From Pseudobythopirellula maris (lineage in GTDB: Bacteria; Planctomycetota; Planctomycetia; Pirellulales; Lacipirellulaceae): a stretch of DNA of 64,000 nt. Positions 13,218 through 19,863 of this stretch are shown here, piece after piece. The stretch lies in contig NZ_SJPQ01000001.1 in assembly GCF_007859945.1 (NCBI RefSeq), positions 1,054,001-1,118,000 on the forward strand, given 5' to 3'. The position numbers and the translations under genes were made by a program. The notes under the pieces were generated by a model. The model worked only from the letters and a program-made list of their open reading frames with translations, made no database searches and had not been told where the DNA came from. Position 1 is the first letter of the stretch, and every line of letters begins with the position of its first letter.

Positions 13218-15608
13218 TCACGGCGCCGACCAGCGGCCGCCCCAGCCCTTACGTAGCTGGTCGATCTCTTTCTCCCACGCCTCGGGGCTGCGGCTCTCGG
13301 GGTACGGCTGGGGGGCGATCGGGGCGGCGCTGCGCCAGACGATCTCGTACTGCCCGGCGGGCGAGACGCGGCCGATCATCGCATACCGGTAGGCGTACTG
13401 CGACTTGGGGTCGAGGCGGATCAAGCCGCTGGGGGCGTCGTACGACTGGTCGAGCATGGCGTCGCGTATGACCAGCGGGTCGGTCCTGGCCGCCTGCTCC
13501 ACGGCCCCGGCCCACAGCTTGATCGCGTCGTAGGCGGTCTCCATCGGGGCCGCCACAACGCGCCGATTGCCGAATTTCTTCTTGAAGGCGGCGACAAACT
13601 CCAGGTTCTCCGGCCGATCGATCGACTGGAAATAGGTGCTCACCGCATAGGCGCCCACGAGGTGGTCGAGGCTCGGACTCCGCAGGTCCTCTTCGCCTAC
13701 TCCGGTCGTGATGTGGGCCGAACCGACGTCGCTCTGGTAGAGTGCGCGGACGAAGGCCGTTTGTGTGTCGCCGCTGATCGTGTTGATGATGATGTCAGGC
13801 TTGGCCGCGGCGATCTTATCGACCACGCCCTGCACGTTGGCCGACCCCAACGAGAGATACTCCTCGCCCACCACGCGGGCGCCCATCGAAGCGAGTTCGT
13901 CCTTGAGGATCTCGTTCGCCATGCGCGGGTAAACGTAGTCCGAACCGACCAGGAAAAAGGTGCGCATCTGGCCGAAGGAGTACGCCCAACGGGCGCACGG
14001 GATGACGGTCTGCGTGGGGTCTCCCCCCAGGTAAACGATGTTGGGGCTCGTTTCGACTCCCTCGTGGTTGACCGAGTAAACGAGTAGGTGATCCTCGCGT
14101 TCGACGACCTCGGCGACCGACTTGCGGCTCGAGGAGGTGCAGCATCCGAAGATGGTGCAGACCTTCTCTTCGCCGATCAGCCGCTCGGCGCCTTCGGAAA
14201 AACCCTCCTCGGTGGAACGGCCGTCGACGACGATCGGCTCAACGCGGCGGCCGAGAACGCCCCCGCCGGCGTTCAGCTCTTCGATGGCCAACAAGTAACC
14301 GTCGACGATAACCTTTTCGCTGTGGGCCATCGTGCCCGAGAGCGAGTGCAGCAGGCCGATGCGGATCGGTTCTTCGGCGAAGGCCGGCGCGGACGAATCG
14401 GTCGGCCCGATGGCGCCACTGGCGCCTCTCGACGAGGCGGTCTGCTCCGGCCAGCGACCGACCCACCAGCCCGCGGCGGCCACGGCGAGCAACGCGGCGC
14501 CAGTGATCAGCGCCCGGCGGGTGGTGCGGCTTTCGACAGGCCTGGGCGACGCGACGACGATCGGGTCGGTGCGTCCCTCCAGGGCGTCGAGCATCGCGTC
14601 GCACGACGGAAAACGGTCGGCGGGCGACTTGGCCATCGCTCGAAAGACGATGTCGCGGCACCTCGTGGGCAAGCCGGCGACCGCCTCACAGGGGTCGGGC
14701 GGCTCGGCGTTGCAGTGGGCGTTGATCACACTCACCAGGCTGCCGCAGTCGTTGTACGGCGCCGCGCCCACGAGCAGGCAGTAGTAGGTGGCGCCGAGCG
14801 AGTAGATGTCGGTACGCGGGTCGACGGCGGCGCCCTCGCACTGCTCGGGGCTCATGAAGTCGGGCGTGCCGACCAACTGGCCGGTGCGTGTGAGCTGCAG
14901 CGAGCTGCGGTTGAGCTGCTTGGCGGCGCCAAAGTCGGAAACCTTGACCACGCCCGCCTCGGTGAGCAGCAGGTTCGCCGGCTTGATGTCGCGGTGCACG
15001 AGTCCCTGGGCGTGGGCGGCGGACAAGCCGCGGCAAGCGTCGGCCGCGATGCGGGTCGCCTCTTCGAGGGGGTAAGGCCCCTTCTCCTTGAGCCGGTCGG
15101 CGGTGCTACCCCCCTCGGCGTACTCCATCACGAGGTAAGCCTCGCCGCCGTCGACCGCCACGTCGTGCACCGTGATCACGTTGGGGTGGTGCAACCCGGC
15201 GGCGGCGCGTGCCTCGGCGAAAAACCGCTCGCGCATCGGTCCGTCGTCCACCAGGTTGTGGTGCAACACCTTGATCGCCACGTGGCGACCGAGGTCGGTG
15301 TCGCGCGCCTCGAGCACCACCCCCATGCCGCCCGAGTCGAGCACACGGCTCACCTCGTACTTGCCGAGCAAGCGTCCGCCCCAGGAGGCGGCCGGCTCGG
15401 CGGTGCGTGCGTGGGGATCGACGCGGGTGGCCGACAATCCGCCTAGCAGCGTCTGCGGCGAATGGTGGGCGAGCAGAGAATTCACCTCGGCCAGCAGCTG
15501 CGAGTCGTCTCGGCAGGCCTCGCCCAAGAACCGGTCGAGGTCGTCGCCTTCCAACTCACAAGCCCGGATGAAGACCTCCTTCACTTGGGCGTGACGCTCA
15601 GGAGTCAT
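13218..15608 (-). CDS. Ser/Thr protein kinase fused to a UrtA/AmiC-type periplasmic binding domain
   Basis: This 796-residue receptor kinase has three parts. Residues ~84-345 are a Hanks-type kinase with catalytic Lys113 (VAIK), HRD at 205-207 in HRDIKPANLL, and DFG at 225-227. The first Gly of the glycine loop is Asp91 (LDSGGMGVV). Residues ~365-385 form one transmembrane helix. Residues ~413 to the end are a type I branched-chain amino acid/urea/amide-binding fold (IRIGLLHSLSGTMAHSEK). The expected topology is cytoplasmic kinase and periplasmic sensor. The ATG at 15608 is favoured by the Shine-Dalgarno AAGGAGG at 15614-15620 and overlaps the ECF sigma gene by 11 bases. I infer that a small amide, urea or amino acid ligand controls the kinase. 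Confidence 0.9.
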   Translation of the reverse strand: MTPERHAQVKEVFIRACELEGDDLDRFLGEACRDDSQLLAEVNSLLAHHSPQTLLGGLSATRVDPHARTAEPAASWGGRLLGKYEVSRVLDSGGMGVVLEARDTDLGRHVAIKVLHHNLVDDGPMRERFFAEARAAAGLHHPNVITVHDVAVDGGEAYLVMEYAEGGSTADRLKEKGPYPLEEATRIAADACRGLSAAHAQGLVHRDIKPANLLLTEAGVVKVSDFGAAKQLNRSSLQLTRTGQLVGTPDFMSPEQCEGAAVDPRTDIYSLGATYYCLLVGAAPYNDCGSLVSVINAHCNAEPPDPCEAVAGLPTRCRDIVFRAMAKSPADRFPSCDAMLDALEGRTDPIVVASPRPVESRTTRRALITGAALLAVAAAGWWVGRWPEQTASSRGASGAIGPTDSSAPAFAEEPIRIGLLHSLSGTMAHSEKVIVDGYLLAIEELNAGGGVLGRRVEPIVVDGRSTEEGFSEGAERLIGEEKVCTIFGCCTSSSRKSVAEVVEREDHLLVYSVNHEGVETSPNIVYLGGDPTQTVIPCARWAYSFGQMRTFFLVGSDYVYPRMANEILKDELASMGARVVGEEYLSLGSANVQGVVDKIAAAKPDIIINTISGDTQTAFVRALYQSDVGSAHITTGVGEEDLRSPSLDHLVGAYAVSTYFQSIDRPENLEFVAAFKKKFGNRRVVAAPMETAYDAIKLWAGAVEQAARTDPLVIRDAMLDQSYDAPSGLIRLDPKSQYAYRYAMIGRVSPAGQYEIVWRSAAPIAPQPYPESRSPEAWEKEIDQLRKGWGGRWSAP

Positions 15609-16389
15609 CCGCCCCTCCTTCGGGCCCGTCTGCTGTCCCGCCTTGAGCCACGTCGGCAGGCCCACCGCTCACAGCCCCCTCGGTCGACGGCTCATCGGTC
15701 TCGTCCCCGAGCTCGCGCCGCAACCACGCACGGATCATCGACCACTCGAGCTCGACGGTGCGCTTCGACACGCCGAGCGCCTCGGCGACCTCACGCACGG
15801 TCATGCCGCCGAAGAACCGCATCTCCACGATCCGAGCCTGTCGCTCGTCGAGTTGGGTGAGTCTGTTGAGCGCCTCGTCGAGCGCGAGGATGTCCTCGTC
15901 GCACCGCTTGGACTCGAGCAGGTCGCCATCAAACTCCACGCGGCGCCATCCGCCCCCCCGCTTCTCTCGGCCCTTCGAGCGGGCGTGGTCGACCAAGATG
16001 CGTCGCATCGCCTGCGCGCTGGCGGCGAAGAAGTGGCTGCGGCTCCGCCAGTCGGCGTCATGCTGCTTGCAGAGCTTCAGGTACGCCTCGTTTACCAAGG
16101 CGGTCGACCTGAGGGTGTGGTCGGTTGGCTGGCGTCGCATGTAGTGCGAAGCCAAATCCCGCATCTGGTTGTAAACCAGGGGCATCAGGCGGTCAGCGGC
16201 GCTCCGGTTGCCCTGGCTGATCGCTTGTAAGACGGCGGTGATTTGGGTCGTTTCGGGCAAGAAAGATCGGCCATCAACACTTGCGCGGGTGATTGAAATC
16301 GCGGTCCCGACGCTGTGGGCAAGATAGCAGGAAACCAGTGCCGCTAAAAGCTTTACGAGTGAGAATGCGCTGTTGCGTTGCGGCAACAT
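15598..16389 (-). CDS. ECF-type RNA polymerase sigma factor linked to kinase
   Basis: The sigma2 region starts near QITAVLQAISQGNRSAADRL and carries PLVYNQMRDLASHYMRR; the sigma4 helix-turn-helix is MTVREVAEALGVSKRTVELE. The family is the planctomycete-expanded ECF group usually found beside Ser/Thr kinases. Where classical ECF factors have an acidic DAED in region 2.2, this one has RSTALVNEAYLKL, with candidate phospho-acceptors Thr92, Ser95 and Thr96 (numbering from 16389). The start is uncertain. The ATG at 16389 has GAGAGG upstream but adds a hydrophobic stretch atypical of the family; a TTG at 16260 would give the usual ~220 residues. No anti-sigma gene is present. I infer that the adjacent kinase controls it. 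Confidence 0.85.
   Translation of the reverse strand: MLPQRNSAFSLVKLLAALVSCYLAHSVGTAISITRASVDGRSFLPETTQITAVLQAISQGNRSAADRLMPLVYNQMRDLASHYMRRQPTDHTLRSTALVNEAYLKLCKQHDADWRSRSHFFAASAQAMRRILVDHARSKGREKRGGGWRRVEFDGDLLESKRCDEDILALDEALNRLTQLDERQARIVEMRFFGGMTVREVAEALGVSKRTVELEWSMIRAWLRRELGDETDEPSTEGAVSGGPADVAQGGTADGPEGGADDS
15614..15620 (-). promoter_or_regulatory. Strong ribosome binding site of the kinase gene
   Basis: AAGGAGG on the minus strand lies 5 bases before the ATG at 15608, inside the end of the sigma gene. It fixes the kinase start and rejects an in-frame start 57 bases upstream. Confidence 0.8.
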
Positions 16390-16491: not shown

Positions 16492-17196
16492 ATGGATACA
16501 AAACCTACTGTCTATGTAGTGGATCCTGACCCAAGGGTCCGATCCCGCGTTGCGCTCGAGTCTAAGGCATGGGGCATGGCGTGCGAAGAATTCGCCACGA
16601 TGCAGGACTACGCACTAGAGGCCTCGGGCAACCGGCCAGGTTGTCTGGTCATGGAGAACGCCTTGCCCGTCGGTCAAGACGAGCACCCCTTGCAGCAGCT
16701 CCGTTCGCGTGGCGACACGACGCCGGTGATTGCGATGACCGACGAGATGAACGTTTCGACCGTAATCGAATGTTACGAGCAAGGCGCCTGGTCGGTGCTG
16801 GAGAAGCCGATCGCCTTGGAGAAGCTCCGCCGATACGTTGAGTGCGCTATCGAGTTCGACACGCGTAGCTTGGAATTCGTGCGTCGCCACCAATCGCTGC
16901 TCCAATCCAACGACGCCCTCACCGACCGCGAGAAGGCGGTGCTCGGCATGATCGTCAGCGGCCGGCTGAACAAGTCGATCGCCAACGAGTTGGACGTGTC
17001 GGTCCGCACGGTCGAATCGGTCCGAGCGAGCATCCTGCGCAAGTACGAGGCGGCGACCGCCGCCGAGCTGGCGGCCAAGGCGACCGAGTTCGAGCTGCTG
17101 GACGAGGCGCTGCTGCGGGTGGGCTCGCCGATTTACTTGCAGTACCGCAATCGGGGACGCCTCGAGGCAGGGCAGCGGCTGGGCGTCTGTTGCTGA
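16492..17196 (+). CDS. FixJ/LuxR-type response regulator with degenerate receiver
   Basis: This 234-residue protein has an N-terminal receiver-like domain and a C-terminal LuxR helix-turn-helix (LTDREKAVLGMIVSGRLNKS then VSVRTVESVRASILRKY). The receiver keeps the beta5 Lys (LEKPI), but the usual phospho-acceptor position reads CLVMENALP, so Glu55 replaces Asp. The acidic pocket DPDP also departs from the usual DDD. Glu can mimic phospho-Asp, so this regulator may be locked active or phosphorylation-independent. It is divergent from the ECF/kinase pair across about 100 bases, which makes shared regulation plausible but unproven. No histidine kinase is nearby. Confidence 0.85.
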   Translation: MDTKPTVYVVDPDPRVRSRVALESKAWGMACEEFATMQDYALEASGNRPGCLVMENALPVGQDEHPLQQLRSRGDTTPVIAMTDEMNVSTVIECYEQGAWSVLEKPIALEKLRRYVECAIEFDTRSLEFVRRHQSLLQSNDALTDREKAVLGMIVSGRLNKSIANELDVSVRTVESVRASILRKYEAATAAELAAKATEFELLDEALLRVGSPIYLQYRNRGRLEAGQRLGVCC

Positions 17197-17307: not shown

Positions 17308-18177
17308 ATGCCCCGCCCCGACGCCACCGCCCCCAATCGCGCAGCGGCCGACGCCGCCACACCCGACTCTCTCGCCCCGGCGGGCGGCGGCTGGCACTGC
17401 AGCCACCTCTATTACTCCTTCGACCGCGTGCTGCTCCCCTCGATGGACTCGGAGGAGCGTGACGCCGTGGCCGACTCGATTCTCGCTGTGCTCGATCCCG
17501 AGGCGCCCCACGCGCCCATGCGCATGCAGCTCTCGATCACCAGCGGCCACAAGGCCGACTTCGGCTTGATGCTGCTCGACCCCGACCCGCTGAAGATCGA
17601 CGCTCTGCACCAAAGGCTGATGGCCAGCCCGGCCGGCCAGGTGCTTCAGACCGGGTACTCGTTCGTCTCGGTCACCGAGATCTCGGAGTACGTGACCAGC
17701 GTGGAGGATTACGCCGCCCGGCTCGTGACCGAGGGGCTCGAAGAGGGGAGCGGGCCTTACGAAACCAAGGTGAAAGCCTACGCCGACCGGCTGGTGGCGA
17801 TGAACCACCAGCGTCTGACCCCGGACTTCCCCCCCTATCGGGCGGTTTGCTTCTACCCGATGAACAAGAAGCGTAAAACCGGTGAAAACTGGTTTGCGCT
17901 GCCCAAGGAGGAGCGAAACCGCATGATGAGCGAGCACGCTCGCAGCGGGATGGCGTTCGCCGGTCGGGTGAGCCAGCTGATTTCTGTCGGCCTTGGTTTG
18001 GATGATTGGGAGTGGGGAGTTACACTATGGGGTAAGAACCCCGAGTATTTGAAGGACATCGTGTACGCGATGCGGTTCGATGAGGCGAGCGCCCGCTACG
18101 CCGAATTTGGCCCTTTTTTAGTCGGCTACGTCTGCACCGCAGCGGAGCTGATCGACCATTGCCACGTGAGACGCTAA
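17308..18177 (+). CDS. hemQ: Coproheme decarboxylase (HemQ/ChdC, chlorite dismutase family)
   Basis: This 289-residue protein converts coproheme to heme b with hydrogen peroxide, the last step of the coproporphyrin-dependent heme pathway. Family landmarks are GGWHCSHLYYSFDR near the N-terminus, the heme-pocket segment FYPMNKKRKTGENWFALP, and GLDDWEWGVTLWGKNPEY followed by RFDEASARYAEFGPFLVGY. True chlorite dismutases have a different distal Arg context, so HemQ is preferred. The first ~25 residues are low-complexity and not conserved. The gene stands alone, with 111 bases after the response regulator. Confidence 0.93.
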   Translation: MPRPDATAPNRAAADAATPDSLAPAGGGWHCSHLYYSFDRVLLPSMDSEERDAVADSILAVLDPEAPHAPMRMQLSITSGHKADFGLMLLDPDPLKIDALHQRLMASPAGQVLQTGYSFVSVTEISEYVTSVEDYAARLVTEGLEEGSGPYETKVKAYADRLVAMNHQRLTPDFPPYRAVCFYPMNKKRKTGENWFALPKEERNRMMSEHARSGMAFAGRVSQLISVGLGLDDWEWGVTLWGKNPEYLKDIVYAMRFDEASARYAEFGPFLVGYVCTAAELIDHCHVRR

Positions 18178-18474: not shown

Positions 18475-19863
18475 ATGAAGCTCCTCCGAATCGCAGCAGG
18501 CCGGGTCGCCGCTAAAGCTTTGCTGACGCTGGCCGTGGCCGCCCTCTCGGCGGGCGGCGCGGCGGCCGACGTGGTTCTCGACTGGAACCGCGTGGCGTCG
18601 GACGTTCTCGCCGCCAACGAGTCGCTCCAGAACCCGGGCGCCGCCTCGCGTTCGATGGCGATGATGAACCTCGCCATCTACGACGCCTTGGCCATGACCA
18701 AGCCGGGCGGCACGATGTTCTACGACTACGGCTCGGGCCACGACTCGCCCGCGCTCACCGCGTCGGACAAGGCCGCCGCCGCGCAGGCAGCCTACACGGT
18801 GCTCAGCTCGATTTACGGCGACCAGCAGACGTTGCTCGACGCGGGCCTGACGCAGAGCCTCTCGCACCTGCCCAACAACGCGGCCAAGCAGCATGGACTG
18901 GACCTGGGCACGATGATCGGCCAATCGATCATCGACCGCCGCGCGAACGATGGCTGGATGGGAGGCACATCGCAGTACCAGCCCACCAATGAGGTCGGCC
19001 ACTGGCAGCCCGACCCGCTGCACCCGGGCCAACAGGCCTGGGGCCCCGACTGGGGCGACGTCCAACTCTTCTCGCTCGGCTCGAACGCGCAGTTCATGCC
19101 GCCGCCGATGCCCGATCTCACCAGCCAAGAGTACGCCGACGCCTACAACGAGGTGAAGGACCTGGGGGCGGTCGACAGCCCCTCGCGGACGGCTGAGCAA
19201 ACCGAGATAGGGAACTTCTGGGCTTACGACCGGCTCGGCATGGGCACGCCGATGCGGCTGTTCAACGACGTGCTCCAAACCGTCGCCGTGCAAGAAGGCA
19301 ACACCGTCAAGGAGAACGCCGAGCTGTTCGCCAAGGCCACGGTGGCGATGGCAGACGCGGGCGTGGTGGCCTGGAACTCGAAATTCGAGCACGACTTCTG
19401 GCGCCCGGTGACCGGCATCCGCCAAGGCGACCTCGACGGCAACGACCTCACGGAGGGGGACGAAGACTGGACCCCTCTCGGCGCCCCCGGCGACAACGGC
19501 GACAACTTCACCCCGCCGTTCCCGACCTACCTCTCGGGCCACGCCACGTTCGGCGGCGCGCTGTTCGGCTCGCTGATCGAGTTCTACGACGAGGACGGCA
19601 TCACGTTCACGGTCGGCTCCGAGGAGCTGCCCGGCATCGAGCGCACGTTCGACTCCTTCACCGAAGCGATGGCCGAGAACGGCCGCAGCCGCGTTTACCT
19701 CGGCATCCACTGGAACTTCGACGACACGCTCGGCCAGCAGGCGGGCATGGCGATCGCTCAGAACATCATGTCGCGACCGTTCGTCTCCGCGGTCCCCGAG
19801 CCGGCAACCCTGCTGCTCGCGCTGCTTACGCTCGCCTCGCTAACGGGCAAGCGACGGCGGTAG
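18475..19863 (+). CDS. Secreted vanadium-dependent haloperoxidase/PAP2-type protein with PEP-CTERM tail
   Basis: This 462-residue protein has a Sec signal peptide (cleavage near AAA-DVVLDW). The active-site elements of the haloperoxidase/PAP2 superfamily appear in order: Lys and Arg in NSKFEHDFWRPVTGIR, the YLSGHATFGGA motif with catalytic His, and SRVYLGIHWNFDD with the second Arg and the vanadate-ligand His. The protein ends in VPEPATLLLALLTLASL plus basic residues, a PEP-CTERM exosortase sorting tail, so it is exported and processed at the envelope. Halogenation is the likely activity, but phosphatase activity cannot be ruled out by sequence reading. Confidence 0.9.
   Translation: MKLLRIAAGRVAAKALLTLAVAALSAGGAAADVVLDWNRVASDVLAANESLQNPGAASRSMAMMNLAIYDALAMTKPGGTMFYDYGSGHDSPALTASDKAAAAQAAYTVLSSIYGDQQTLLDAGLTQSLSHLPNNAAKQHGLDLGTMIGQSIIDRRANDGWMGGTSQYQPTNEVGHWQPDPLHPGQQAWGPDWGDVQLFSLGSNAQFMPPPMPDLTSQEYADAYNEVKDLGAVDSPSRTAEQTEIGNFWAYDRLGMGTPMRLFNDVLQTVAVQEGNTVKENAELFAKATVAMADAGVVAWNSKFEHDFWRPVTGIRQGDLDGNDLTEGDEDWTPLGAPGDNGDNFTPPFPTYLSGHATFGGALFGSLIEFYDEDGITFTVGSEELPGIERTFDSFTEAMAENGRSRVYLGIHWNFDDTLGQQAGMAIAQNIMSRPFVSAVPEPATLLLALLTLASLTGKRRR

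Follow-up and report, generated by a model that had tools for sequence, protein, structure and literature searches.

A gene of the planctomycete Pseudobythopirellula maris encodes, with a probability that we put at about 60%, a receptor kinase that is gated by a ligand and coupled to an ECF sigma factor activated by phosphorylation. The gene lies in a stretch of 64,000 nucleotides that was analysed as a whole (hereafter, the window), and the elements of this reading that are seen in the sequence itself are the architecture of the receptor, the catalytic residues of its kinase, a binding pocket that is both altered and conserved, the coupling with the sigma factor gene, and a sigma factor motif that lacks its acidic residues and carries a threonine. 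From these elements we infer the nature of the ligand, the direction of the switch, the phosphorylation and the regulon, as parts of a single chain of events. A small molecule other than urea would bind the UrtA-type domain outside the membrane and cause this domain to close; closure would be relayed through the single helix and change the activity of the cytoplasmic kinase, which would in turn phosphorylate the overlapping ECF at Thr53, within its region 2.2. The phosphothreonine would provide the negative charge absent from the RSTA motif, so that the ECF could join the RNA polymerase and switch on its regulon.

The receptor corresponds to a single ORF of 796 amino acids on the minus strand (13218..15608; ATG at 15608, stop ending at 13218). 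It starts with a helical domain (residues 3-48; 15465..15602), also present in the related fusions of genomes G002, G019 and G209 and in a kinase of G015 bearing another binding domain, followed by a Hanks-type kinase domain (residues 84-333; 14610..15359; Pfam Pkinase, E 1.2e-47) with the fold of PknB (Z about 36). After a lone membrane helix (residues 366-383; 14460..14513) comes a binding domain of the UrtA/AmiC type (residues 415-773; 13290..14366), which matches PF13433 (Peripla_BP_5) with an E-value of 2.4e-121 and 405.7 bits against a gathering score of 27. The ORF, the Pfam domains and the fold comparison agree, then, with the original prediction of a Ser/Thr kinase and a urea/amide-type binding domain joined in one protein. 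The single membrane helix of that prediction was also recovered: there is only one clear hydrophobic segment (about residues 366-384), located between the kinase and the binding domain, and the model places a helix at this site. Because this lone helix sits behind a basic stretch (TTRR), the kinase should be cytoplasmic and the binding domain should lie outside the membrane. The AlphaFold2 model of the receptor, built with 41 homologues, reached a mean pLDDT of 85.6 and a pTM of 0.54, with both domains confident individually and their relative placement not confident. The modelled binding domain superimposes on UrtA (8tg1) with a TM-score of 0.95 and an rmsd of 1.6 Å (Z 54.5), and compares with AmiC at a Z of 51.0. 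Homologues with the same architecture recur across many genomes, with an identity of about 40-53% for those that are full-length, so an arrangement far beyond chance is indicated by these sequences.

A detailed view of the pocket indicates which ligands are plausible. In the UrtA of Prochlorococcus, the eight residues around urea (W120, S122, Y141, Q144, E146, Y190, N246 and S274) are strictly conserved among UrtAs; the W120A mutant does not bind urea, and mutants of S122, Q144, Y190 and N246 show a strongly reduced or abolished binding (PMC10392092). We took the pocket positions from the crystal structure of UrtA with urea and from these mutants, and mapped them onto the receptor by sequence alignment rather than through a ligand-bound model. 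The equivalent residues in the window are C490, S492, Y511, N514, E516, Y558, S612 and G636, and thus four of the eight urea residues are replaced, in every case by a smaller side chain: Cys490 for Trp120 (14139..14141), Asn514 for Gln144 (14067..14069), Ser612 for Asn246 (13773..13775) and Gly636 for Ser274 (13701..13703, all on the minus strand). Urea is consequently an unlikely ligand of this receptor, as the first three of these residues are needed in UrtA. In the same line, the receptor scores 366.6 bits with the TIGR03407 model of urea ABC substrate-binding proteins, below its cut-off of 492.75. We consider, on the basis of these alignments, that the receptor probably detects a small molecule other than urea, which would probably be somewhat larger given that all four replaced side chains became smaller.

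The urea/amide label of the original prediction holds therefore for the fold, but not for urea as the ligand, nor does the pattern of AmiC fit. Read off the alignment, the AmiC pocket is Y-S-Y-P-E-Y-Y-V-T, and a large planctomycete group of separate, amide-like binding proteins shows WSYAEYWVA/S; the pocket of the window differs from both. Moreover, the regulator next to the receptor combines a receiver with a LuxR-type HTH and is not an AmiR-type antiterminator. A pocket that has kept the kind of ligand known from UrtA, AmiC or FmdD (urea or short aliphatic amides), with replacements that merely tune the affinity, would fit a fold and an overall sequence that are closest to UrtA and the retention of S122, Y141, E146 and Y190; the loss of W120, Q144 and N246, needed for urea (PMC10392092), together with S274, and the mismatch with both amide-type patterns make this explanation unlikely.

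The replacements are not peculiar to the window. All eight urea residues are intact in 27 of 45 kinase fusions, for example in those of G026 and G034, while the pocket string C-S-Y-N-E-Y-x-S/T-G is common to the window, G002, G019 and G209, with replacements identical in the first three and a Thr for the Ser in G209. The binding domains of these four proteins share 51-62% identity with one another. The urea-type fusions have 119 columns conserved at 90% or more, and all four proteins depart from them at 19, which comprise four of the eight pocket positions and 15 of the 111 columns outside the pocket (Fisher p 0.02). Such data bear on whether ligand binding has simply been lost, leaving a domain with a structural or protein-contact role, for instance in sensing another periplasmic protein. 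That several urea residues are gone together would agree with such a loss, as would the known inputs of ECF43 kinases, polymyxin and amoeba contact, which the sections of the literature considered here do not report as bound ligands (PMC8999054, PMC13147305). Random decay, however, is not expected to yield one common pattern in four proteins so divergent, all of which keep S122, Y141, E146 and Y190, and the UrtA fold is modelled with confidence. We regard the loss of binding as quite improbable, and the retention of one pattern in four divergent proteins favours a different ligand over decay.

The genomic context of the receptor also separates it from a transport function. No ABC ATPase gene occurs within the 64-kb window (45 are found elsewhere in the genome), the receptor gene does not belong to an ABC transporter operon as UrtA genes do, and the genome (5.07 Mb, 96.5% complete) contains no second PF13433 protein and no LivHM-like permease, its two PF02653 permeases being located in sugar-type ABC operons elsewhere. 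The claim that no transporter lies nearby can thus be extended from the window to a genome without a cognate transporter, and neither offers any sign of a receptor domain serving a separate transporter. A RuBisCO-like frame, recognized by eye, adjoins a sugar-type ABC transporter in the same genome (L169:164-2002, minus strand; G000 C1 near 1.9257 Mb). A genome search for urease was also negative. More broadly, neither urease nor allophanate hydrolase occurs in any of the 35 genomes of the order sample that encode fusions; for urease, this depletion (0/35 versus 10/361) is not significant. Because of this absence, feeding on urea is unlikely for the urea-type receptors which, if they do bind urea, more likely treat it as a signal than as food, at least via urease or allophanate hydrolase.

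The kinase domain keeps its complete catalytic set, that is, K113, E132 in helix C, HRD at 205-207 with D207, N212, and DFG at 225-227 with D225, as originally noted for the Lys, HRD and DFG elements. The glycine loop reads D-S-G-G-M-G and departs from a strict GxGxxG, in a domain that scores well above the Pfam cut-off. The alignment with other fusions supports that Asp91 (15336..15338, minus strand) replaces the first Gly of the ATP loop, as predicted, but this is not a one-off: at the equivalent position G002 has Glu, G209 has Tyr and the kinase of G015 has Asp, whereas G019 and 41 other fusions have Gly. A change of this loop glycine therefore recurs in the subfamily of the window. Asp91 could weaken ATP binding and, as a guess, may lower the basal activity of the kinase.

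The ECF sigma factor gene (15598..16260, minus strand; 220 aa) lies upstream of the kinase gene, and its end overlaps the kinase start by 11 bp, as expected from the earlier reading of this locus. Its likely start is TTG 16260 (MPETTQITAVLQ), picked by likeness to MPQQSQITAALQ of G019. The protein scores 202.9 bits with PF07638 (cut-off 21.1) and 212.9 bits with TIGR02999 (cut-off 126.15), a type that we infer to be ECF43. Region 2.2 shows RSTALVNE in place of DAEDxxQE, where RSTA replaces the acidic core-binding DAED with no acid in the first four positions, and the same RSTALVNE is present in all three overlapping ECFs (window, G002 and G019). The third residue of the motif, Thr53 (16102..16104, minus strand), takes the position of the phosphorylated Thr of EcfP and EcfK. 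According to two reports, the acidic motif is missing from ECF43 sigma factors, and their activation is proposed to result from phosphorylation, by an adjoining kinase, of the Thr of STTA or QTTA, the latter being common in ECF43, while in EcfP the second Thr of STTA is phosphorylated by PknT (PMC8999054, PMC13147305). With the acidic DxxD of region 2.2 absent, a Thr in third position and a Hanks-type kinase next to it, the pair of the window is a variant of the already known module of ECF43 and kinase. Upstream of the ECF gene, a weak promoter-like element (TTTAGC-16 nt-TATCTT; 16321..16348, minus strand) was noticed by eye, also in G019 and G002; a scan for consensus sigma-70 promoters returned no site, this element falling under its threshold, and we take the three-genome element as a lead only. 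A search for an intrinsic terminator found none.

A divergent FixJ-like regulator (16492..17196, plus strand), with a receiver and a LuxR-type HTH, carries Glu (LVMEN) at the position of the phospho-acceptor Asp. Its relatives hold the same place in G002, G019 and G021, with 35-43% identity among the four and a phospho-acceptor position occupied by Glu in G002 and by Asp in G019 and G021; in G726, the place is taken by a PAS-like protein (PAS by eye) with a LuxR-type HTH. Further along the window, a gene whose product resembles vanadium chloroperoxidases and weakly matches PEP-CTERM (18475-19863, plus strand) adjoins a HemQ-type gene (17308-18177).

The four proteins with the altered pocket form, together with those of G021 and G726, a clade of six in the tree of binding domains (SH-aLRT 100). 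An ECF gene was detected alongside five of these six members and at none of the 39 other fusions (Fisher p 5e-6, with kinship ignored). Detection relied on a pair of ECF queries and on Pfam annotation of as many as four neighbours at each locus, covering the 25 commonest of 55 families; a single case may have been missed, and a few loci offered less than 1.3 kb upstream. The ECF is directly beside the receptor in four of the six, and in G726 a single gene of the same run separates the two. In G021 and G726 the ECFs are of another type, with the acidic motifs DADD or DIDD, and the kinases begin with a zf-HC2 domain; phosphorylation at the position of Thr53 therefore cannot be what couples the whole clade. 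G209 has kept the altered pocket and the N-terminus, yet no ECF adjoins it; in its genome, the one good relative of the ECF, at 51% identity, lies far off, with no kinase motif in the surrounding 3.5-kb locus. Other arrangements were observed in these loci and genomes. At L150:891-5775 (plus strand), an ECF gene is followed by two kinases in succession, of which the leading one has PAS-like repeats and the other is the UrtA-type receptor; the N-terminus of each is of the HxxxCxxC (zf-HC2-like) kind, and the locus also has a divergent PAS-like/LuxR-type regulator. In G021, at least 18 relatives of the ECF of the window occur in one genome, several of them adjoining kinases.

No ECF was detected at 39 of the 45 fusions, so the architecture as such does not imply coupling to an ECF. 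The two-gene pathway from ligand to transcription that had been proposed survives in that the ECF is genetically coupled and of a phosphorylation-activated type, but it is a property of one clade rather than of the architecture. The fusions without a detected ECF must act otherwise, and the FixJ-like gene is a conserved divergent neighbour, which leads to a further explanation, namely that the main targets of the kinase lie elsewhere, for instance in this regulator or in the kinase itself, with the ECF as a mere neighbour. We find it very unlikely for the window, since the genes of the kinase and of the PF07638 ECF overlap in G000 (the genome of the window), G002 and G019, these three kinases have one N-terminal domain in common, and the ECF is without the acidic motif that would allow it to function unmodified. 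The coupling of the receptor kinase to its overlapping ECF is the reading that we keep for this pair.

A PF13433 protein is carried by 119 of 396 genomes of the order, and reading of the loci verified kinase fusions in 35 of these 119 and in 5 genomes of another family of the class. The count of this architecture across planctomycete genomes, suggested with the original prediction, gave at least 45 distinct fusions in at least 40 genomes, a lower bound among the matches retrieved. In six more loci, the UrtA-type domain is joined to hybrid histidine kinases that show no evident membrane helix (L122:4639-7848, L124:7686-10526, L126:5542-8379, L134:4693-7512, L149:2698-5556 and L151:4286-7249), and all six keep the eight urea residues; these proteins would be intracellular sensors, in the manner of AmiC. 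The UrtA-type domain is therefore a sensor on two kinds of kinases. Our literature search found no fusion of kinase and binding protein in planctomycetes, and the main text of a 2024 survey of planctomycete kinases names no such domain, with its 105 accessory domain groups tabulated in the supplement (PMC11032199).

A single origin for the kinase part of the fusions was rejected (AU test, p 0.0001; 26 fusions and 10 other kinases, for a group that was defined once the first tree was known), whereas their binding domains cluster together (SH-aLRT 80). The nearest kinase to that of the window is the one of G015, with 60% identity over the kinase domain, which carries an SBP_bac_11 domain instead. 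As the fusion kinases are not one group and the closest relative bears a different sensor, binding domains have probably been exchanged between kinases, as far as these trees indicate. The G015 protein (L045:6476-8725, minus strand) has the same N-terminal domain and no ECF was found adjoining its gene.

Several known systems resemble parts of this one. The receptor domain has the fold of UrtA (8tg1, 8hic, 7s6e and 7s6f), with 38-43% identity, but unlike the UrtA of the UrtABCDE transporter it is fused to a kinase and has no transporter genes. AmiC, from the amidase operon of Pseudomonas aeruginosa (1pea), shows the same fold serving as a sensor and not as a transporter part, although with other pocket residues; AmiC is cytoplasmic and acts via AmiR antitermination. 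A binding-protein fold is also paired with a Ser/Thr kinase in the GlnH-GlnX-PknG system of Corynebacterium glutamicum, where a periplasmic binding protein controls the kinase and the target is OdhI (PMC9769921); three proteins are involved there, in contrast with the single protein of the window and its proposed sigma factor target. The closest parallels are EcfP-PknT of Vibrio parahaemolyticus and EcfK-PknS of Xanthomonas citri, both composed of an ECF43 and its cognate Hanks-type kinase, which respond to polymyxin and amoeba contact, respectively, with no bound ligand mentioned in the portions of the reports used here (PMC8999054, PMC13147305). As in those pairs, the ECF of the window is without the full acidic motif, has a conserved Thr and adjoins a Hanks-type kinase; unlike them, its kinase has for its outer part a domain of the solute-binding type whose pocket is defined, so that a small-molecule ligand can be sought directly. 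Since a pocket of well-known chemistry sits on a kinase of the sigma-phosphorylating type, the chain from ligand to RNA polymerase becomes testable with two purified proteins. More tentatively, and with somewhat less than even confidence, we suggest that planctomycetes may use urea-type domains as a general receptor module for kinases, and that the pocket of one clade would have moved from urea to another conserved ligand. The same clade would be coupled to ECFs by two routes, one with an RSTA ECF activated by phosphorylation and another, in G021 and G726, with an ECF that keeps its acidic motif and an anti-sigma-like zf-HC2 N-terminus of the kinase, and the ligand of the receptor in the window would be, among the published cases considered, the first small molecule to stand immediately upstream of sigma factor phosphorylation.
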